A stretch of 64,000 bases of DNA from Pseudomonadota bacterium (GTDB taxonomy: Bacteria; Pseudomonadota; Gammaproteobacteria; Acidiferrobacterales; UBA6901): contig JAJYEX010000001.1 in the NCBI GenBank assembly GCA_021785515.1, forward strand, positions 1-64,000, given 5' to 3'. Shown one piece after another: positions 43,881-63,622 of the stretch (position 1 is its first letter; each line of letters starts with the position of its first letter). The notes beneath the pieces were generated by a model. It was not told the origin of the DNA and did no database searches. It saw only the letters and a list, made by a program, of their open reading frames with translations. The translations under genes were made by a program, and so were the position numbers.

Positions 43881-44396
43881 GTGGCGGAAACCGTCCCGAC
43901 CGCTTTCCGGATTGAACCGCTCGGAGAACGGCACGACCGAGCGCATTTTTCCTGTGGCGTTGATGCGCTGGACCGCTACCTTCGCGCACAGGCCGGTCAG
44001 GACAGTCGCAAGCATATTGCTTCCTGCTTCGTTCTCTTAACCGGCAATGAATCCGTAGCGGGCTACTATACGTTATCGGCCATGGGAATTGCGCTCGTCG
44101 ATTTGCCGGCGGCGCTGGCAAGGAAGTTACCGCGCTACCCCGTCGTTCCTGCAACCCTGATGGGACGGCTTGCCGTGGATCGTCAACATCAGGGCCATGG
44201 CCTCGGGGAACTCCTTCTTTTCGATGCTTTCAGCCGGACACTGCGCAGCGAAATCGCCTCCTATGCCTTCGTGGTTGATGCTAAGGACAATTCGGCGCAA
44301 GCATTTTACGAACATTACCGTTTTCTGCAGCTAGCGGGCACTGGACGACGGTTGTTTCTGCCGCTCGCTGAAATTGCGATGCTTTTCAGCAAGTAG
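43881..44396 (+). CDS. GNAT-family acetyltransferase toxin (TacT-like)
   Basis: A 171-residue GNAT protein. Known relatives acetylate aminoacyl-tRNA and stop translation. FSCGVDALDRYLRAQAGQDS is the family opening, and RLAVDRQHQGHGLGELLLFD is the acetyl-CoA loop. SAQAFYEHYRFL closes the fold with the catalytic Tyr region. The GTG start abuts the antitoxin stop (TGAGTG). Confidence 0.9.
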   Translation: MAETVPTAFRIEPLGERHDRAHFSCGVDALDRYLRAQAGQDSRKHIASCFVLLTGNESVAGYYTLSAMGIALVDLPAALARKLPRYPVVPATLMGRLAVDRQHQGHGLGELLLFDAFSRTLRSEIASYAFVVDAKDNSAQAFYEHYRFLQLAGTGRRLFLPLAEIAMLFSK

Positions 44397-52870: not shown

Positions 52871-53179
52871 GGCATCGCTTCGTCCATCCGGACGCGCTGC
52901 CGGGTGGCTGGGAGCGGATCGAGGGGATCATGCATATGCCGGACACGGAGGAGACCGAACCCGGTTACCTCCGGCGCGAACTGCCGCGCGGCGTGCCGGG
53001 GCGGATCGGGCAACTCCTCGACGCCGCCCGCGGCGGGGCGTCCATCCCTGAGATCGCGCAGCGCCTCGGGGTGACCCCCCCGCCGCGTGCGCCAGCTGAT
53101 CAATGACCCGGTCGCGATCCGAAGTGCGGCGGGGATCGCGGCCGTACAGGGCGATCTCTTCGCGGGGGTCGGCCGGTGA
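52867..53179 (+). pseudogene. HTH protein interrupted by a C7 frameshift
   Basis: The frame from ATG 52867 ends at 53106 after 79 codons. A run of seven C's lies at 53075-53081. With six, the frame would continue GVTPRRVRQLINDPVAIRSA to a TGA at 53177-53179, giving 103 residues with a complete helix-turn-helix (IPEIAQRLGVTPRRVRQLI). That restored stop overlaps the next gene's GTG (GTGA), as do its neighbours. It may be a true mutation, phase variation or a sequencing error. Confidence 0.6.
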
Positions 53180-54021
53180 CTGGAATCATTCGCGCGCCGC
53201 GCCCGGAGCGCCAGTACACCCAGATCCGCAATGAGGTGGCACGGGATGACCGGCTGTCCTATCGAGCCCGGGGGGTGCTGGTGCGCCTCCTGTCCAATGC
53301 CGACGGATTTCAGATGACCGCCGCCAACCTCGCTTGCGAGGGGCGGGAGGGACGGGGCGCCATCCTGACGGCCCTGCGGGAGCTGCGGGAAGCGGGCTAT
53401 ATCCGGACCACCAAGAGCCAGGATCAACAGGGCCGCTGGTCGACCGAAACGTACGTCTATGACACCCCCCAGCCGACCGGAGTCCAAAAACCGGACTCCG
53501 GTTCACCGGACTCCGGTTCACCGGATGTCGGTTTCTTCGACGCTAAATACAGAACACCAATAGAACACCCATTAGAAACAGAGCGCGCTACCGCGCGCTC
53601 TGCTAAGGCCGCCTCGGTTGAAAGGAAACCATCGAAACGCGCCGACCCAGAGGCGGTTGTCCCCGGTCCCCTGCCTGACGACTGGGTCCTGCCCCGAGAT
53701 TGGGAAGCCTGGGCGAACAAAGCCCGCCCGGAGCTCGCAGGCGAGCTCAAGCGCATCGCAAGTGCGCTCCAAGCGGTGGGGACGGCCCGCAGCCCGCCCC
53801 GATCGTGGGAGGCGGAGTGGCGGTTATGGATCGCGCGCGAGCGGTCGGCTTCTCAACCATCCAGGAACGGAGGGACGAACCATGCAGCACATCGGTCAGC
53901 ACATCAACGAAGGCCCAGCCTCGCGGAACGCGCGAGCGCCGCACGGCGCGAATTCGAGCGCGCTCGATTCGAGGAGGATCGTGCATCTGTGGGAGCGGAT
54001 GATCCACCTGTACGGACATAA
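53176..54021 (+). CDS. Replication-initiator-like HTH protein
   Basis: A 281-residue protein. The N-terminal winged helix YTQIRNEVARDDRLSYRARG, MTAANLACEGREGRGAILTA and LREAGYIRTTK resembles phage and plasmid replication regulators. The C-terminal part has PDDWVLPRDWEAWANKARPE and WEAEWRLWIARE, as in phage replication proteins. GTG 53176 overlaps the preceding reading frame. The last 140 nt overlap the next gene in another frame. Confidence 0.6.
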   Translation: MTGIIRAPRPERQYTQIRNEVARDDRLSYRARGVLVRLLSNADGFQMTAANLACEGREGRGAILTALRELREAGYIRTTKSQDQQGRWSTETYVYDTPQPTGVQKPDSGSPDSGSPDVGFFDAKYRTPIEHPLETERATARSAKAASVERKPSKRADPEAVVPGPLPDDWVLPRDWEAWANKARPELAGELKRIASALQAVGTARSPPRSWEAEWRLWIARERSASQPSRNGGTNHAAHRSAHQRRPSLAERASAARREFERARFEEDRASVGADDPPVRT

Positions 54022-54736: not shown

Positions 54737-55969
54737 TTAAGTGATGATAGGGTCAAAATGGTTCCTCAGGACGTCCGCACAGCTACTAGTTTCCCAGTTA
54801 AATGGAACCAGCGGGTTGGTAATTAAATGAGGCTGAATTCTGTGGAACCATCCTTGCCAAGGTAGGACCAGCACCCCAACGACTTTGGACAATGGTGTGC
54901 CGTCTCTATTCATCAAAAGTCTTATATAATCAGAAAGATATTCCCCTGATGGAATATCACGTGCATGAATGACTACCAGTCCTGGCGCAGCCTCATTTTG
55001 CAGTTGTTCGGCTGCTGGGGTCAATGCATTGCTTAGCATTCTCTTGAACAATTGTGGGTCAAGCGTGTTTGAGAAGCTGACTGACGATCCTTCCTTGATC
55101 TCGGAGGACCAGAAAATTCCTTGACCCAATCCAACGACTGCGATCAGCGCTGGCCACACATCCCTTTGTCGAGCAATTTCTATCTGCTCCAGCAGAAATT
55201 TCGTGATTTTTCTCGCCGCCGCTCGTGAGTCCTCTTCACTTGACCGCGCTCGGATCAGGTGTTCCGACACCTCTGGTACGATATTAAATTTAACCAGAAG
55301 CCCTGCGCTGCTTGCAGCGTTCATTATGTCATGTGACAATGCATCATAAGCCGCATCCAGCCACGCAGTAACCCTGCCAACCTCCAATCGCTTGCATTCG
55401 ATCGCGATCTGTTCAGAACCCTTTGCCACGCGGATATCTGGCATCTTTCCCTTAGAAGGTTTTGGGATGGGAAACTCCACCCGGAATCCCTCGCCCAAGA
55501 AGCAGTCCGCGATATCGAGTTCCATGGCCGACGACTCACTGCGCTCACCGCTGCGTAGTCCATTTATGACAATATGGCTTCCAGGTATCCCCTGTATCCG
55601 TCGTAGCCGCGCGGAAAGCCTAAGCATGAACTCGCGGCTGGTATATGCTCGGTAAAAAATAGATCGGATAAACACATTGTCGAAATAATTGCCGCTATAA
55701 GACCGACACCATTCTGCGGTAAAGACCGTTTTCAGGTAGTCAAATGCTTGCGTCACCTCTTCAATAGAACGCGGTGTGACCTCGACCCAATTATCTTCAA
55801 GCCACCACGGGTCTGCCCACCATTCTCCGGTTTTTCGGAGGTCCTCTTCGCTTATGGCCATTCCGCTAGTGAGACTCGCCTTCCAACGTATAGTGGATAG
55901 CTGATCATTTCCTCTTTTCTGACGATTGCAAAGCAATTCCTCGCATTCGTTGCTGTGATCTCGTCCCAA
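54737..55969 (-). CDS. PD-(D/E)xK nuclease-like protein, partner of SIR2
   Basis: An open frame of 410 codons from TTG 55969; ATG 55861 (374 residues) is another possible start, and neither has a clear ribosome-binding site. The nuclease fold is seen at residues 149-193: MELDIADCFLGEGFRVEFPI, then MPDIRVA, then IAIECKR, which gives the E...PD...ExK pattern with Asp178, Glu191 and Lys193. The N- and C-terminal regions are unfamiliar. It follows the SIR2 gene by 13 bp. Lower GC than the neighbours suggests transfer. I infer an antiphage role. Confidence 0.6.
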   Translation of the reverse strand: MGRDHSNECEELLCNRQKRGNDQLSTIRWKASLTSGMAISEEDLRKTGEWWADPWWLEDNWVEVTPRSIEEVTQAFDYLKTVFTAEWCRSYSGNYFDNVFIRSIFYRAYTSREFMLRLSARLRRIQGIPGSHIVINGLRSGERSESSAMELDIADCFLGEGFRVEFPIPKPSKGKMPDIRVAKGSEQIAIECKRLEVGRVTAWLDAAYDALSHDIMNAASSAGLLVKFNIVPEVSEHLIRARSSEEDSRAAARKITKFLLEQIEIARQRDVWPALIAVVGLGQGIFWSSEIKEGSSVSFSNTLDPQLFKRMLSNALTPAAEQLQNEAAPGLVVIHARDIPSGEYLSDYIRLLMNRDGTPLSKVVGVLVLPWQGWFHRIQPHLITNPLVPFNWETSSCADVLRNHFDPIIT

Positions 55970-55982
55970 AAAAACTGTTCGA

Positions 55983-57083
55983 TTACGTCAAAGCAGCTTC
56001 GATGGCCGTTACGTCGAGGCCTTCCTCGAAAAAATTCTCGCGTTTCCGAATTCCTCGTCCAAAGAACCGCTGATAATTGTGGTAGGTGTCGGTATTATTG
56101 TGTCCTTTAGTTACAACCACAAAATCAGGCTCCTTATTTCGAGACACTTGAATGCGTTTCAGGAGGTGCTTGAATTCATAATCTGCAGCGGGCAGCGAAT
56201 AGCCTATAAACACCCATTTACGCGCATTCCGAAGGATATCTTCGGCTGTTAGCCATGAACGTTGAAACATAGGGAAATCGAGCGCTTTAAGATAGCTGAA
56301 TGTGGCCATTCGCGTCGTAAGGCGGACTCCTGTGCACTCTGGGCATTCCCAGTATGGGGCGTTATTACTTGGGTTATTTTCGTCGTAGAGTTGCTTGGCA
56401 ATCTTTGGGGAGTCCTTCGAATCGAACCAATATAGTTGACGACAGTTATCGCAATAGAGCCAGTTCGTCGAGCCATGCATCTTGACGATTCTTAGCGAGC
56501 CCAGATCGGTCTTTTTTTTCTCTCGCTTAATTGCTCCCACCTTTTTCGGGAAGGAAGCGGGCAGTGCAGCGCATCCGTAGTTGAAGGAACTAATCCGTTT
56601 AACTCGCTGGATCATCTGTTCAATAACCGTGTCCCAGTTCATGCATATGAATGCCGTGCTATTCGAGTCAACTTTTTTGAAGAATTCGGAAAGGCCTTGA
56701 AACTCACGCGACGTCTGATTTGTTACATTATTGAACCGCTCATCTAACATCCAGATGATCCGTGCGATGAGGGCGCGCCGAAGTTTCCGCAATTCCTTGG
56801 GCGGGTATTTCGAACCTAGATGGTGTCCCGCATTGGCCGACAGGTCAATCGATGTAAATATGTCCTCAAGATCAGGCCAAAACGCCGATTTCGCGTCGAC
56901 ATTGTGATCGAACGCGTCATGCACGAACAGCGACAGATCTTGGACAAGCGCCTGATTCTTGTGACCATCTTGGTGCCGCGGTTCGAGAAGTGCCTCCGTA
57001 AAGTCACTCTGAAGCGGGAGACCAGCGTGACGAGAAAAGCCCGCGCCAACGATAATTGCGTTGTGAATCCCTTTTGAGTTCAC
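55983..57083 (-). CDS. SIR2-family NADase-like protein with a zinc ribbon
   Basis: A 366-residue protein. The SIR2 nucleotide-binding motif is IIVGAGFSRHAGLPL (residues 10-24). The catalytic region has ICMNWDTVIE (Asn149, Asp151) and KMHGSTNW (His203). A zinc ribbon follows with CDNC and CPEC, and GYSLPAADYEFKHLL closes the fold. Bacterial SIR2 proteins of this type destroy NAD+ in phage defence. GTG 57083 has AAGGAAG upstream; TTG 57122 has no ribosome-binding site. It is the first gene of the pair with the nuclease. Confidence 0.8.
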   Translation of the reverse strand: MNSKGIHNAIIVGAGFSRHAGLPLQSDFTEALLEPRHQDGHKNQALVQDLSLFVHDAFDHNVDAKSAFWPDLEDIFTSIDLSANAGHHLGSKYPPKELRKLRRALIARIIWMLDERFNNVTNQTSREFQGLSEFFKKVDSNSTAFICMNWDTVIEQMIQRVKRISSFNYGCAALPASFPKKVGAIKREKKKTDLGSLRIVKMHGSTNWLYCDNCRQLYWFDSKDSPKIAKQLYDENNPSNNAPYWECPECTGVRLTTRMATFSYLKALDFPMFQRSWLTAEDILRNARKWVFIGYSLPAADYEFKHLLKRIQVSRNKEPDFVVVTKGHNNTDTYHNYQRFFGRGIRKRENFFEEGLDVTAIEAALT

Positions 57084-57486
57084 CGGAGCTTCCTTATCTG
57101 TCGTTGTTTGTATCAGTTCCAAATTTTCTGAGTTCTAGTTAGGTGCTTGCTTGCTGCATAAAGCTTAGCGCTGATGGGTCTCGGTAGCCACCAACAATGC
57201 ATTAACCTCACTACGCCACTGATACCAAAAATTGGTCAGGCCAGTGGGTCAACGGCTTCAGTCTATCGGTATTGGACGCCAATGTTCAGCTGCCCGATGT
57301 TGACACCGGCGGCAACTAGCCAAATTGCGGACGTAGGGCCCGACGTATTTCGGGGTCGTTTTGGCCGACATCCCTCCGACGGCGCGTCCAACCGTCGCTT
57401 TCTCCGCCTTGTGGAACGCTTTCCGTCAGGCCGACGATTAGCCTCGATGCGGGTCGACATGCGCGATCCGTGCATGCGGTGTTCCT
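57084..57486. other. Upstream region of the SIR2 operon
   Basis: About 400 bp. It separates the defence pair from the leftward plasmid-type operon, whose genes read toward it. No gene was recognised; the SIR2 promoter should lie near 57,100-57,180 but no clear boxes are visible. Confidence 0.35.
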
Positions 57487-58203
57487 CTAGTCCGGAGTTG
57501 CGCCGCAGACCTCGATCGTCCGCAGCACCGGGCCAGCGACACCCTGGATGACGATCTGGACATGCCCACACTCCCCGGCGCCGGTGCGCACGGTGTGCCA
57601 TCCCCAGGGCAGGACTTTGCCATCGAGATACTGCGCTTCGATGCCCACGCCTGCACCGAGCAGCAGGGCGAACGCCAGAGACCCCGCGACCACGGACCAC
57701 GATCGCGCCATCTTCCCCGCCAGGCCCACCCGGATCTGATCCCGGGCAGCGTGGGCCGCCGCCGTCTGCATTTCCCGGATCAATTCCTCACGGCGCGCGC
57801 TCGCAGCGGTGCCGAGCTGTTCGGTTGCCTGGGCGATAGCCGCAGCCGCCTGCTTCGCCGCCCTGTCGATGCTCGCTGTGCCGGTGGCGGCGATGAGATC
57901 GGTGATTCCCTTTCCCGCGTGCTCGACGACGCCCTTCAGATCGGCTGCGGCTTTCGTGGACCCGCGGTAGATCGCCTCCGGCAGTCCGGCGAGTTCCTGT
58001 CTGGTTGCCGTCGCCGCCTCGCCCGCCGCGGCGGCGGCTGCCCAGGCATTGATGAAGGCCTTGACCAGGAGCCAGGCCGTGTCGTGATCCGCCCGGATCC
58101 CCATGGCGGCGGCGTTCTCAATCAGCGCCTCCCGCCATTCCGGCGGAAGGCCCCGAAGGGCCTCCTGCTTAGGGGAGGTCTGATCTGGCGTTGCTTTATC
58201 CAT
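57487..58203 (-). CDS. Plasmid-type membrane protein of unknown function
   Basis: A 238-residue protein. PPEWREALIENAAAMGIRAD and an Ala-rich helical middle, probably coiled coil, precede a membrane helix at about 178-200 (VVAGSLAFALLLGAGVGIEA). The C-terminal part is periplasmic, with two Cys. AGGAG is ten bases before ATG 58203. It is last in an operon with a ParA-like ATPase and an HTH protein, in the order of stbA-stbB-stbC plasmid modules; I cannot confirm that it is StbC. Confidence 0.5.
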   Translation of the reverse strand: MDKATPDQTSPKQEALRGLPPEWREALIENAAAMGIRADHDTAWLLVKAFINAWAAAAAAGEAATATRQELAGLPEAIYRGSTKAAADLKGVVEHAGKGITDLIAATGTASIDRAAKQAAAAIAQATEQLGTAASARREELIREMQTAAAHAARDQIRVGLAGKMARSWSVVAGSLAFALLLGAGVGIEAQYLDGKVLPWGWHTVRTGAGECGHVQIVIQGVAGPVLRTIEVCGATPD

Positions 58204-58210
58204 GGGTTTT

Positions 58211-58951
58211 TTACTCCTGGTGTGATGCCGGGTAGAGGGTGGCCACGCACTGATGCGCCGCGGGGAGCCACTGACGTCCGAAGAAGAGCCGTTCACCGAA
58301 GGTGAGCGCCGATTCGGGCTTCGCCAGATCCGAGAACGTCCCCGGCAGGCTCAGTACCTTGTCGACCAGGGACTCCGGACGCAGTGCCGGCATCGCGGCT
58401 TCCAGTCCGCCCGCCGACAGGAATGCCGCGCGTGCCCCGTTGCGCACGAAGTCAAACCGCTCGCTTTCCGGTTGCAGGAACAGCGGATAGACGATGCAGC
58501 GCCGTTCGGGGGCAACGGCCCCCAGGAGCCCCTCGCGCAGCGACCGGATCGCCGATTCGCTGGAGGTCCGCTGGTGTCCCAGGGAGTAGTAGACGTAGCT
58601 GCCATGTCCCAGGGACTGCCCGGCTTCGATAAGGAGCCCCGCCATCGTGTCCAGCGTGTCGCCTGCGGCAGCCGGCAGGTTCACCACGATCTCGGTGTCC
58701 GACCCGAGTCCCTCCAGGGCTTCGGCGAACTTGATCACCGCCGCCTCCGCGGCACCGGCGCGGTTGAGGTTGACGGCCCGAAGCGCGATGCCCGGGACCT
58801 CCTTGAACCGTTGCGCGATGTCCGGTTGCCCCAGGTCGCCTTCGATGATCGCCACCGGCAGTCCGGATGCGATCAGATAATCCGCAAGCACTGCGCTCGT
58901 CAGGCTCTTGCCGGTGCCACCTTTGCAGCCACTGCTGTAGAAAATAGACAC
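58211..58951 (-). CDS. ParA/StbB-like ATPase
   Basis: A 246-residue deviant Walker-type ATPase. SSGCKGGTGKSLTSAVLADY contains the KGGxGKS loop; IIEGDLGQPDIAQRF follows, and VVNLPAAAGDTLD is the Walker B region. Such proteins place plasmids or mobilisation complexes in the cell. It lies 7 bp before the 238-residue gene and 28 bp after the HTH gene. Confidence 0.75.
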   Translation of the reverse strand: MSIFYSSGCKGGTGKSLTSAVLADYLIASGLPVAIIEGDLGQPDIAQRFKEVPGIALRAVNLNRAGAAEAAVIKFAEALEGLGSDTEIVVNLPAAAGDTLDTMAGLLIEAGQSLGHGSYVYYSLGHQRTSSESAIRSLREGLLGAVAPERRCIVYPLFLQPESERFDFVRNGARAAFLSAGGLEAAMPALRPESLVDKVLSLPGTFSDLAKPESALTFGERLFFGRQWLPAAHQCVATLYPASHQE

Positions 58952-58979
58952 AGGTTCACTCTCCGTAGGGTTGAGGGGG

Positions 58980-59360
58980 TTAGTCGATGACTTTCACGCC
59001 GCTCGCCGCCAGAGCGGCCGCGTTCTGCTCGGGGGTCTTCGGTGCCGCTCCCGGCGGCGGGCGTTGCAGCCGCTCGCGGGTCAGATCCGCCGCCGACGGT
59101 CGCGGTGCGGGAACGCCCCGGGCCGGTGGCGCGGTCAGTTGTCCCGACGCGATACGCTGGGTGACGCGCCGGTACGCTTCGGCGAGCGGTTTGGCTTTCT
59201 GGGCGTCGAGGTCCATGGCCTGCGCAATGTCCGCCCACGACCACCCGTGCCGCCGGGCGGAGGTGATCTGCGCGTACTCGCGCAGTACCAATATTCCGAG
59301 TCCTCGGGAACCCGGTGGGTAGTTGCTGGCGAGGTCTGCGAGCCTGGTTTTGTCTGTCAT
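58980..59360 (-). CDS. Small HTH protein, StbA-like position
   Basis: A 126-residue protein with a helix-turn-helix-like segment (ITSARRHGWSWADIAQAMDL) and a Pro/Ala-rich tail. It is the first gene of the ParA-like operon and lies next to a hairpin-rich region. A DNA-binding role in plasmid stability or at oriT is inferred from position. Confidence 0.5.
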   Translation of the reverse strand: MTDKTRLADLASNYPPGSRGLGILVLREYAQITSARRHGWSWADIAQAMDLDAQKAKPLAEAYRRVTQRIASGQLTAPPARGVPAPRPSAADLTRERLQRPPPGAAPKTPEQNAAALAASGVKVID

Positions 59361-59401
59361 GGGTACCTCCTTGAAAGTGATGTTCCTATAAGTGGTGTGC
59401 C

Positions 59402-59525
59402 GCGGAAATTCACGGGCGTTCGTCTTTCATAGGCCAGAAACCTCACGCGGCGTGAAGCATCACGGGGTGATGCGGAAATTCCTCAAACGCTGCGCCCAAA
59501 CCGCGCCGAGGCACGGCTTTGCCTC
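59402..59525. other. Hairpin array, candidate oriT
   Basis: Three perfect stems follow one another: TCACGC/GCGTGA (59443-59455), GCATCAC/GTGATGC with a GGG loop (59457-59473), and GAGGCA/TGCCTC (59508-59525). The 10-mer GCGGAAATTC occurs at 59402-59411 and again at 59472-59481. It sits between the StbA-like gene and the relaxase pseudogene, where an origin of transfer is expected. Confidence 0.4.
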
Positions 59526-59639
59526 ACGGGCGATGCGTCTAAGCGGTGTTGAAAGCGTGCTGATTCGTGGGTTTCGTGCGGGGATTCTGATTTTGATGTG
59601 GCGGAGACGGGTCAAAATCGAGGGGTTCCACGGAGTCAA

Positions 59640-60695
59640 GGCGGAAGTAGACGGTCACTCTGCGAGTGACCTGTACACACAATCGCACCGAATGGTGCTG
59701 GGCGAGGCGGCAGTCGATCACTCAGATACCGACAACCCGCACACGCATATCTTGCTTCGCGGCCGTGCTGCCAATGGTCAGAACACGGTGGTCGCGCCAA
59801 ACTATTGGCCGACGAGCTCAATGACCGGGGCTATCTGGTGGTAGATGGCATCTATGGGCGCGCGCACTACGTCCGCCTGCCGGTCGGCGCCGACCTGATG
59901 GCACTGCCGGTGGGTGGCATCGTGGAAGTGAATTCTGCCGGACGGGAACGTTTGGTGGATCGCAACGTCGCGGGCCTCGTGCGTGACGGTCTTTACCGTA
60001 GCGTTGACCATCTTGCGCAGCTTCGATAAGCAGGAGCCTGCGGACTCACAAACCGCAGTCAATACCCATGTGCGCAGACGCGAAGCACTATGTCGCACCG
60101 GAGCCGTGGAGCAAATAAGCGATGGCGTTTGGCGCTTACCGCCTGATATCTTGTCGCGCGCTCAAGCGCACGATACGCAACGAGCCGCAGGTGTTGCCAT
60201 CGAATTGCGCTCGCAACTTCCTATTAACAGCAAGTGCGCGCCCAGGGCGCGACATGGCTGGACCATCAATTGGTGGGTAATAGCGGGAATCTTTCGGCGC
60301 AGGGTTTCGGCGCGCAGGTGCGGGATGCGTTGCAGGATCGGGTGGATTTTCTCGTCGAGCAGGGCTTGGCCGAGCGGCGCGGACAGCGTGTGGTTTTAGC
60401 GCGCAATCTGTTATCCACCTTGCGCGACCGGGAACTGGCTGCGGCGGGCAAATCGCTTCAGGACGCAACCGGGCTCAACTTTCGCCCACTGCTTGATGGG
60501 GCACGCGTCAACGGTCTTTACCGCCGTTCTCTCCAACTCGTCAGTGGCCGCTTCGCGATGCTGGATGATGGCACGGGTTTCAGCCTGGTGCCGTGGAAAC
60601 CGGTGATCGAACAGCGGCTGGGACAGACCATGACTGCTGTTGTCCGAGGTGCATCGGTCATCTGGGATATGGGACGGCGGCATCTTGGCCGATAG
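59640..60695 (+). pseudogene. Relaxase/mobilisation nuclease-DUF3363 pseudogene
   Basis: Pieces of a VirD2-like relaxase with a DUF3363 tail lie in three frames. The HxH metal motif is in DHSDTDNPHTHILLRG. Then come ADELNDRGYLVVDGIYGRAH, REALCRTGAVEQISDGVWRL and, in a third frame, AQGATWLDHQLVG and RFAMLDDGTGFSLVPWKPVI. At least three frameshifts and a shortened N-terminus rule out function. It shows that this stretch was once a conjugative or mobilisable element. Confidence 0.82.
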
Positions 60696-60977
60696 GCGTA
60701 GGGCTATTTTTAAAATGGTGGCCACACCGTTGCCAGCAAAGCATGTGCGCAGCTAACAGTCGGAGCTTCAATATTGGTGGTGGGGTGGAACCCTGCGCCA
60801 AATCTATGTAACTCAGCGCCTTAGAACCGCTGCGAACTACTGCGGAATGGTGCGGATTCCAGCCCTTTATGCGCTCAATCCAACCAGTTCTTCGGGGCCG
60901 GGGTCAGCAGTCAAGTGAATCAGACAGGACGCCAGTTCGATTCTCATTTGCGGAATTGAACCCGCGTCCGCAATTGA

Positions 60978-61723
60978 TCAAAGCAGCCGCACCGGGCGTG
61001 CAATCTTAGGTCTTCGAGCTTGGCTGGCAGTCTGGAGGTTGGCCGACTTGGAGAGGATTCGCAGCATCGCCTGGTTGTGGTGGTAGTCCCGGAAGGCATC
61101 CGCGACTGCCTTGTCGACGAATGTGGGCGTCGTCTGCCCATCAGCCGGAGCGGACACGATTCCGTCTGGGATGTCACCTGACCAGCCCTGGCCGCCCGAA
61201 AGCCACTGACGATGTGTGAGAAGTTAGGCCAAGCGTGATCCAGATGGGCGTCGTCGATGCTGATCATCACGCCAGTAAGTTCGCACGCAACCAGCCCGTG
61301 AGCGTCCCCGTACTCTGCGAAGGCCTGCTTCTTCGCCAGCACGAGATCGAGTGCGACAGCCTCCCGGCATGCACCGTAGAATTCCTTTGACCGGTCCCCT
61401 GGGATGCCTTTGACGGCCCAGATGTACGAAAAGTCCGTGGCGGACCCGTCCTGGCGCACCACCCAGAAGCCAGAGTTGCTCCAGCCCGTCCCGGTGTTCA
61501 GGCGCCGCTCAAAGTGATCGATCTGGCCGCAACCCTTCGCCGGCTCACCAACGTCGTCAAGAATCGGGTCATATCGTTCGATGAGCGCCACGAGGTCGGC
61601 GTGGTCCCCTGGTTCAGAGATGCGATCACCGTCCTGGTACCGGTGTAACAGGGCATTGTAGTGGTCCAGTGCGCTTTTTTGGGTCCGGACGCTACGGGGT
61701 CCGATCTCGACGGGTTTTGCCAT
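60978..61723 (-). pseudogene. DCL-family (DUF3223) protein of the CBASS operon, frameshifted
   Basis: The third gene of the CBASS operon, 12 bp after the CD-NTase gene. ALDHYNALLHRYQDGDRISE then DHADLVALIERYD and FWVVRQDGSATDFSYIWAVK match DCL (DUF3223) proteins. Near 61,200 the frame shifts: the uninterrupted frame gives an Arg/Thr-rich tail that ends at 60,944. The alternate frame gives QWLSGGQGWSGDIPDGIVSA, DAFRDYHHNQAMLRILSKSA and a stop at 60,978, which looks like the proper C-terminus. It is either a recent mutation or a sequence error. Function of DCL proteins in bacteria is unknown. Confidence 0.65.
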
Positions 61724-61735
61724 GCCTTACTCTCT

Positions 61736-62629
61736 TTACCACTGATTCCAGAGATCAACCGCTGCCTCGACAAGTGCATCACAGTTCGTCTGAGACCAGC
61801 AGGTGTGGTAGCCATCACGTAGCAAGTAATACTGTTCGTTGGCGCAAACCAAGTCAGTCTTGGCCGCATCCTGCCGATACCAGTTGAGGATGTTGACCAT
61901 GCAGTCCTCGAGGCTGTGGGTGAATTTCTCATTCGGCACGTTGTACAGCAGGCCCTCGATGTAGTACGACGGAGCGACGCCTGCCTTGATCAAGCCTTCG
62001 TCAACCATCTCACTGCGAATATTCTTCAACACACGAACCATGGGTTTGAGCCACTTCGATGATGCCTGATGCTTCGCCGTCAGATTTGCCAAATGCTGCT
62101 TCGGGTAGTTCGCAATTCGTTCGCCGGCAGCGTTGAAGAAACAGATTCCTTCGACGTACTCGGAGTCGCTCGCTGACCGGAACTTGAAGTACCGCCGGAA
62201 TTGCGTCGCGACAATCACATCCGACTTGCGCCGTGAACCACTCGCACCGATGGCAATTGCCTTGTCGCCAGTTTTCACTGCCGAGCCGTATTGATCTTCA
62301 AGCACCGACAGCACGTCCCGCTTGAAGTCGGTGTGCGTGTAAGTCGCGTCGCTGAATGCCTGCTTGTAGGCCGACTTTTCGTCATCGGACAGCGATTCGA
62401 GATCGCTGTGGAAGCAGTCATCGAGCCGGATGACGATGTCCACGTCGCTCTCGGCATAGATATTCGTGTCGTTGCCGTATGAGCCTTGAAGGAACACCTT
62501 GAAGTTCTTGCCAGCGTAGGGCGTGGTGCTGGCCTCCAAGACACTTTTGATCGTGTTATAAGTATTGCTCGACTGGGTGATCGAGCCCTGATGTGACCAC
62601 GTTTCGAGCTGTGATTCTGGAATAGGCAT
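61736..62629 (-). CDS. CD-NTase (CBASS cyclic-oligonucleotide synthase)
   Basis: A 297-residue nucleotidyltransferase of the cGAS/DncV-like group. The motif is [20 protein letters not shown] (Gly49-Ser50, Asp62, Asp64), and the third carboxylate is in RKSDVIVA (Asp137). On phage infection it would make a cyclic nucleotide that activates the patatin effector. AGGGGGAAAG precedes the ATG. Product and clade cannot be fixed by eye. Confidence 0.9.
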
Positions 62630-62641
62630 CTTTCCCCCTGG

Positions 62642-63622
62642 CTATATCAAATACTCGCGAAGCTGTTGCTCCCGTGACGCGAACGACTCCCGCCCTCGCT
62701 GGAACAAGATGTCCAGCTTATTAAGGTCGTGCTCCAGCAGATCGGTCGCCATTTCAGGGGTGACGTAGGAGTCACTGATCCGAATGGTCGGTATGTCATG
62801 GAAAAGGATCTGCCGCAGTTGGTCCATCGACTGCGTGTTGATTTCCAATGTCTTCTGCAGCAACTGCACGCTAACGAGATATTTCTTCGCCAGCCTCATC
62901 AGGAAGCTCGGCTTCGGGTCGGGGTAGACACCCACGCCAACACTCACAAGCCGGATGTCCTTGCGGTCACTTTGCTGTGCCTGGACTGCGTCGGCGATCG
63001 CGTACAGCGTCGGGTTATTTGCGCAGTACCCGCCATCGATCAGCTCGATGTCCTCACCCATTGATGTTCTTACGATCGTCCGCTCAAAGAACGGGTAAGC
63101 TGAGCACGATGCCTTGACGGCGTCTGCGATGCTTACGCCAAAGCCCGGGACGAACGTGCCGACACGTCCATGCGCTTGGGCAACGCTGCCCTTGAAGATC
63201 ATCGGGCGCTCGGTCAGCCACTTGGCTGTGACGATCCCTATACCCGTTTTCACATCATCGAACGCTGTATTGCCGAAGACCTCGCTCGCCAGATTTTTCA
63301 GTGCCTGCGACCTGGCCGGAGCGGTCTTCTGTGACATCACGGTAGGCACGTGCTTGCGGTAAAGCTGCAAGATGGAATCGACGTCGTGGCCGAGCGCAAT
63401 CAGTGAGGCGATGATCGCGCCCGTGCTGGTCCCAAAAACCAGATCGAATTTTTGGTGCAGTGGGCACCCGACCATAGCCTCGATTTCCTTGAGTACCCCC
63501 AGCGTGTAAAAGCCCTTGGCACCGCCGCCGTCTAGTGTAAGGACGCGCAGCAAGGCAGATGACGTCGAGACATCCTTCGATTCCACCATTTTCAACGCCA
63601 TCCCCAGAACTGATGAACACAT
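62642..63622 (-). CDS. capV: Patatin-like phospholipase, CBASS effector CapV
   Basis: A 326-residue phospholipase. The oxyanion loop is LTLDGGGAKGFYTLGVL, the nucleophile is Ser66 in FGTSTGAI, and the catalytic Asp196 is in ELIDGGYCANNP. CapV enzymes are switched on by a cyclic nucleotide and degrade the inner membrane, killing the infected cell. It is the first gene of the operon, 12 bp ahead of the CD-NTase. Starts at 63622, 63601 and 63589 are all possible. Confidence 0.9.
   Translation of the reverse strand: MCSSVLGMALKMVESKDVSTSSALLRVLTLDGGGAKGFYTLGVLKEIEAMVGCPLHQKFDLVFGTSTGAIIASLIALGHDVDSILQLYRKHVPTVMSQKTAPARSQALKNLASEVFGNTAFDDVKTGIGIVTAKWLTERPMIFKGSVAQAHGRVGTFVPGFGVSIADAVKASCSAYPFFERTIVRTSMGEDIELIDGGYCANNPTLYAIADAVQAQQSDRKDIRLVSVGVGVYPDPKPSFLMRLAKKYLVSVQLLQKTLEINTQSMDQLRQILFHDIPTIRISDSYVTPEMATDLLEHDLNKLDILFQRGRESFASREQQLREYLI

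Follow-up and report, generated by a model that had tools for sequence, protein, structure and literature searches.

A SIR2-like gene and a PD-(D/E)xK nuclease-like gene as probable defence cargo between replication and partition genes

A SIR2-like gene followed by a PD-(D/E)xK nuclease-like gene, both intact and co-directional, was found at positions 54737-57083 (minus strand) of the window, the 64,000-nucleotide stretch of DNA that was analysed. The pair is a real feature and is probably defensive. With confidence evenly balanced, the locus was interpreted as defence cargo in a replication/partition hotspot of a decayed mobilizable element, combining a rare stand-alone SIR2 NADase effector with a divergent nuclease and acting through abortive infection. 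The nuclease would contact and cut (or sense) foreign DNA, infection would be the trigger that releases NAD+ hydrolysis by SIR2, and the loss of NAD+ would stop the infected cell. Defence is favoured by catalytic residues that are intact and conserved, by the defence-type settings of the nearest SIR2 relatives and of the nuclease-core relatives, by the cargo hotspot that forms the slot and by a CBASS-type operon 4 kb away. The pair is a new variant assembled from known parts. It is plausible that the two genes, which may be co-transcribed, operate as one system through cooperation of both proteins. The more specific proposal, a novel two-gene antiphage system of a zinc-ribbon SIR2 NADase and an undescribed PD-(D/E)xK nuclease, the SIR2 being used elsewhere in 5-methylcytosine and phosphorothioate restriction loci, is tentative and was given clearly less than even weight. 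If the pair works jointly, a SIR2-nuclease combination would be added to the known SIR2 defence systems.

Layout and composition of the locus

The pair and its junction comprise the following features.

55983..57083, minus strand: SIR2-like protein, 366 aa, with GAGFS, N149/D151, H203 and CDNC...CPEC
54737..55969, minus strand: PD-(D/E)xK nuclease-like protein, 410 aa from a TTG start or 373 aa from the ATG at 55858
55859..55982, minus strand: inter-gene junction with two candidate nuclease starts (TTG without a Shine-Dalgarno sequence; ATG)

The GTG at 57083 was taken as the most likely start codon of the SIR2 gene because AAGGA precedes it and three SIR2 relatives start at the same alignment column. 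For the nuclease, the gap of 13 bp reported in the initial annotation holds if the TTG start is used. Tight spacing is nevertheless not certain, since the TTG lacks a Shine-Dalgarno sequence and a distance of 124 bp separates the SIR2 stop from the earliest in-frame ATG. As the nuclease start is uncertain, translational coupling is uncertain as well. Within the junction (55859-55925, minus strand) there is a short ORF of 18 codons, whose ATG is preceded by AAAGAGG and lies out of frame with the nuclease, and whose end coincides with the nuclease's first in-frame ATG; read by eye, this is a possible coupled leader.

The stop-free frames span 366 and at least 373 codons. Neither length is expected by chance, because the longest frame in 2000 Markov-simulated 2.35-kb sequences was 295 codons. 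The pair has a GC content of 0.49, against 0.67 for the DNA towards the replication gene and 0.66 for that towards the partition genes, in agreement with the earlier description of a pair lower in GC than its surroundings. The surroundings lie at 60-70% GC and the edges of the step were placed near 54.3 and 57.2 kb.

The best alternative is that two independent solo defence genes, each acting alone, became neighbours in a cargo hotspot; this is a serious reading, though less likely than not. A single acquisition is suggested instead by the shared strand, the short gap with either start, the matching low GC of the two genes (0.486 and 0.496) and their similar GC3 (0.54 and 0.51).

The SIR2-like protein

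The SIR2 NADase-type effector motif set (GAGxS, catalytic Asn/Asp, His) is present, with GAGFS at residues 13-17, NWD at 149-151 and the histidine at 203. Two cysteine pairs (C211/C214 and C247/C250; CDNC...CPEC) follow the catalytic histidine and form a probable zinc ribbon. The intact catalytic residues and ribbon cysteines were thus located as first annotated. Pfam matched SIR2_2 (E 0.0016) and SIR2 (E 0.051), both below the curated cut-offs, and PADLOC SIR2 models matched with E-values down to 2.5e-7. When the protein was aligned with three relatives over the whole length (44-45% identity), the motif residues were invariant. Judged from these motifs, the protein is a probable NADase effector of a rare subfamily. 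AlphaFold models of the SIR2 protein and the nuclease had pLDDT values of 41 and 38, too poor for use, because relatives are too few.

Loci of the SIR2 relatives

Close relatives of the SIR2 protein (44-45% identity) numbered three. One was carried by a Rhizobium plasmid, the single positive among 72,556 plasmids searched. The genome-wide scan returned one genome, a Sphingomonas, and one further genome was found among 176 sampled from the genus of that Sphingomonas genome. Neither window protein had a relative in the viral contigs and the phage collection that were scanned.

In Sphingomonas sp. Leaf343 (L009), the SIR2 protein was 45% identical to that of the window and had the cysteine ribbon and catalytic residues in common with it. 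In Rhizobium acidisoli (L002), SIR2 is followed by Vsr, and an IS21 element separates these two genes from a HATPase_c_3 ATPase gene and a C5 methylase gene; the Dcm gene and the paraMORC-like ATPase are 5-8 kb from SIR2-Vsr. The third relative lies in a Dnd-type locus (L042), in a neighbourhood with cysteine desulfurase and SMC-like genes. The two compact arrangements are as follows.

L009:2214-9128: Dcm (C5 methylase), HATPase_c_3, HEF_HK, Response_reg_2 and SIR2, an operon-like run with genes overlapping or nearly touching
L042:7283-11213: DndB, then SIR2 after about 15 bp, then a RES-domain protein

The DndB-SIR2-RES order of L042 places two candidate NAD-consuming proteins beside a phosphorothioation gene.

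DNA-modification loci therefore house all three close relatives, two of Dcm/paraMORC type and one of Dnd type. HEF_HK and Response_reg_2 have been described as restriction-modification-associated, two-component-like proteins, in loci that contain varied type II nucleases (Bellieny-Rabelo et al. 2021, PMC8011034); SIR2 is unmentioned in that paper. From its relatives' loci, a small sample of three, the SIR2 subfamily appears to be a portable effector that is joined to defence systems based on modification. Its occurrence across three DNA-modification loci suggests that NAD+ depletion serves to back up restriction of this kind.

These loci bear on the reading of the pair as the remnant of a larger DNA-modification system, with SIR2 as the effector, the nuclease as the restriction enzyme, and the methylase and ATPase genes lost. 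The presence of every close SIR2 relative in a Dcm/paraMORC or Dnd locus and the varied type II nucleases of published HEF_HK/Response_reg_2 loci (PMC8011034) are in its favour. The likeness to that published type of locus lies in the 45% identical SIR2 of L009. The window SIR2, however, adjoins a nuclease, and no methylase, GHKL ATPase, DndB, HEF_HK or Response_reg_2 response regulator was found around the pair in the window. Response_reg_2 had no match anywhere in the genome, although control genomes were likewise without a match. Both ORFs are intact and the pair is free of internal decay, and the remnant reading was considered unlikely.

The nuclease-like protein

The PD...ExK site reported for the second ORF was recovered, with motif residues E150, P177-D178 and E191-C-K193. 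No significant match to the protein was obtained with Pfam, NCBIfam or PADLOC, and none with PHROGs. With phmmer, residues 150-200 matched the Hjc resolvase 1ob8 at an E-value of 0.023. With hhalign, the core matched a 9-member nuclease family at an E-value of 1e-9 over 105 columns. The core homologous to the phrog_37220-type family corresponds to about residues 119-230. A fold search with the low-confidence nuclease model returned noise only. Because the AlphaFold models were too poor, assignment of the fold rests on the short motif and the core match, from which the second protein is predicted to be a very divergent PD-(D/E)xK nuclease.

Searches of 369 genomes from the class and 398 from the phylum, and of plasmids, phages and viral contigs, brought up no full-length relative of the nuclease. 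A scan of genome contigs, which detects close relatives only, also returned no full-length relative, and when the nuclease was the sole query of the genome-wide scan, none of the 20 pattern matches was a relative.

The phrog_37220-type proteins are about 450-490 aa long, with an overall identity of ~20-26% to the window nuclease, and have the core E...PD...ECK(R) in common with it. Homology to the family over the full length is absent; the 105-column core alone aligns. The window nuclease differs from these proteins in its N- and C-terminal parts, where relatedness was undetectable, and in having a SIR2 neighbour. A resemblance between its C-terminal half and the phrog_37220 proteins, proposed by eye, was rejected since the score of 18.0 lay within the shuffled range. 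A weak match to its C-terminus in family member L039 was discarded, being antisense inside another gene. In the comparison with the PD...ECK protein of the Dnd locus L042, just 19 residues around the motif aligned.

The nuclease-core relatives are solo genes, located either in viral contigs of prophage-like character or in islands on plasmids, the latter with Dnd, type I R-M and abortive-infection genes as neighbours. The viral contigs L014-L025 carry a phrog_37220-type PD-(D/E)xK protein. In L014 an integrase and a repressor-like gene adjoin it, which makes that gene a candidate solo prophage defence gene.

Co-occurrence of the two genes

The pair was absent from every other genome, plasmid and viral contig searched, and when the fetched loci were compared in six frames, both proteins occurred together in the window's own genome only. 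Close SIR2 relatives elsewhere have other partners or stand alone. A lack of co-occurrence in other genomes had been named beforehand as refuting the cassette, and on the SIR2 side such a lack was observed: none of the three close relatives had a nuclease relative nearby, and this SIR2 was not found near nuclease-core relatives in any of the fetched loci. The differing partners of the three 44-45% identical SIR2 proteins thus lend no support to the initial annotation of a two-gene cassette. The claim is weakened by this restriction of the pair to its own genome, yet it stays plausible, as the searches yielded no near relative of the nuclease by which to judge it. Solo genes would account for relatives of the two proteins that are separate, and never together, in loci from other genomes.

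Comparison with known systems

The pair does not fit DSR, Thoeris, SIR2-HerA or SIR2-pAgo, as had been stated at first: the partner gave no ATPase, TIR or pAgo matches and the SIR2 protein has 366 aa. The two-gene layout including SIR2 is common to SIR2-HerA and PD-T7-2, but the window partner has no ATPase profile match and carries PD...ExK. The SIR2 NADase motif set is held in common with DSR1/DSR2, Thoeris ThsA and SPARSA. In DSR1 and DSR2, long proteins of roughly 1000 aa upwards, the SIR2 domain is followed by a C-terminal sensor, whereas the window SIR2 is short, lacks such a sensor and gave no Dsr model match. Unlike in Thoeris and SPARSA, neither ThsB (TIR) nor pAgo/APAZ lies beside it. 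No PADLOC model matched the gene adjoining SIR2, and the flanks of the pair are replication- and partition-like.

Element and cargo slot

The surrounding element contains the following features.

53176..54021, plus strand: replication-initiation-like protein on one side of the pair, matched in PHROGs to replication initiation protein and HTH DNA-binding protein entries (E 1e-16 to 5e-16)
57429..59689, minus strand: partition backbone, comprising a ParA-like protein (58211-58951) and two small proteins
59805-60695, plus strand: DUF3363 relaxase, split into separate ORFs
61736-63622, with 60944-61723, minus strand: CBASS-type operon with a DUF3223 gene, 4 kb from the pair

The pair is flanked by the replication-initiation-like and ParA-like proteins, which bears out its described position between replication and partition genes. 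The decayed character attributed to the element was likewise upheld, by the broken relaxase at 59.8-60.7 kb. In one genome of the same genus, the segment 57429-59689 was present at 92% identity and the DNA on its left side was different, with Multi_ubiq and ThiF-family genes at the same edge of the partition backbone (L036:2525-4774). In a second backbone copy of that congener, 72% identical, a replication protein and the partition genes are just about 1 kb apart. This short interval, together with the other cargo in the congener, identifies the position of the pair as a cargo slot.

The nearby operon encodes a patatin phospholipase (NF053870, E 2e-152) and a nucleotidyltransferase (NF053871, E 2e-142). 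This phospholipase/nucleotidyltransferase operon is named DS2 by NCBIfam, and its PADLOC scores are those of a CBASS effector and cyclase. A DUF3223 protein (PADLOC HamC2) follows 12 bp after it, the last ~80 residues extending beyond the model match. That nearby and equivalent slots are filled by unrelated defence modules is also consistent with two solo genes.

The location between replication and partition genes could alternatively suit a non-defence addiction or maintenance module, in which a toxic nuclease or NADase is restrained by its neighbour. This is very improbable, as the SIR2 relatives lie in restriction/modification loci and neither protein matches a known antitoxin family; defence cargo in the hotspot is the preferred interpretation. 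Elsewhere in the window, a GNAT-like acetyltransferase (43881-44396, plus strand) resembles, by eye, toxin-antitoxin acetyltransferases.
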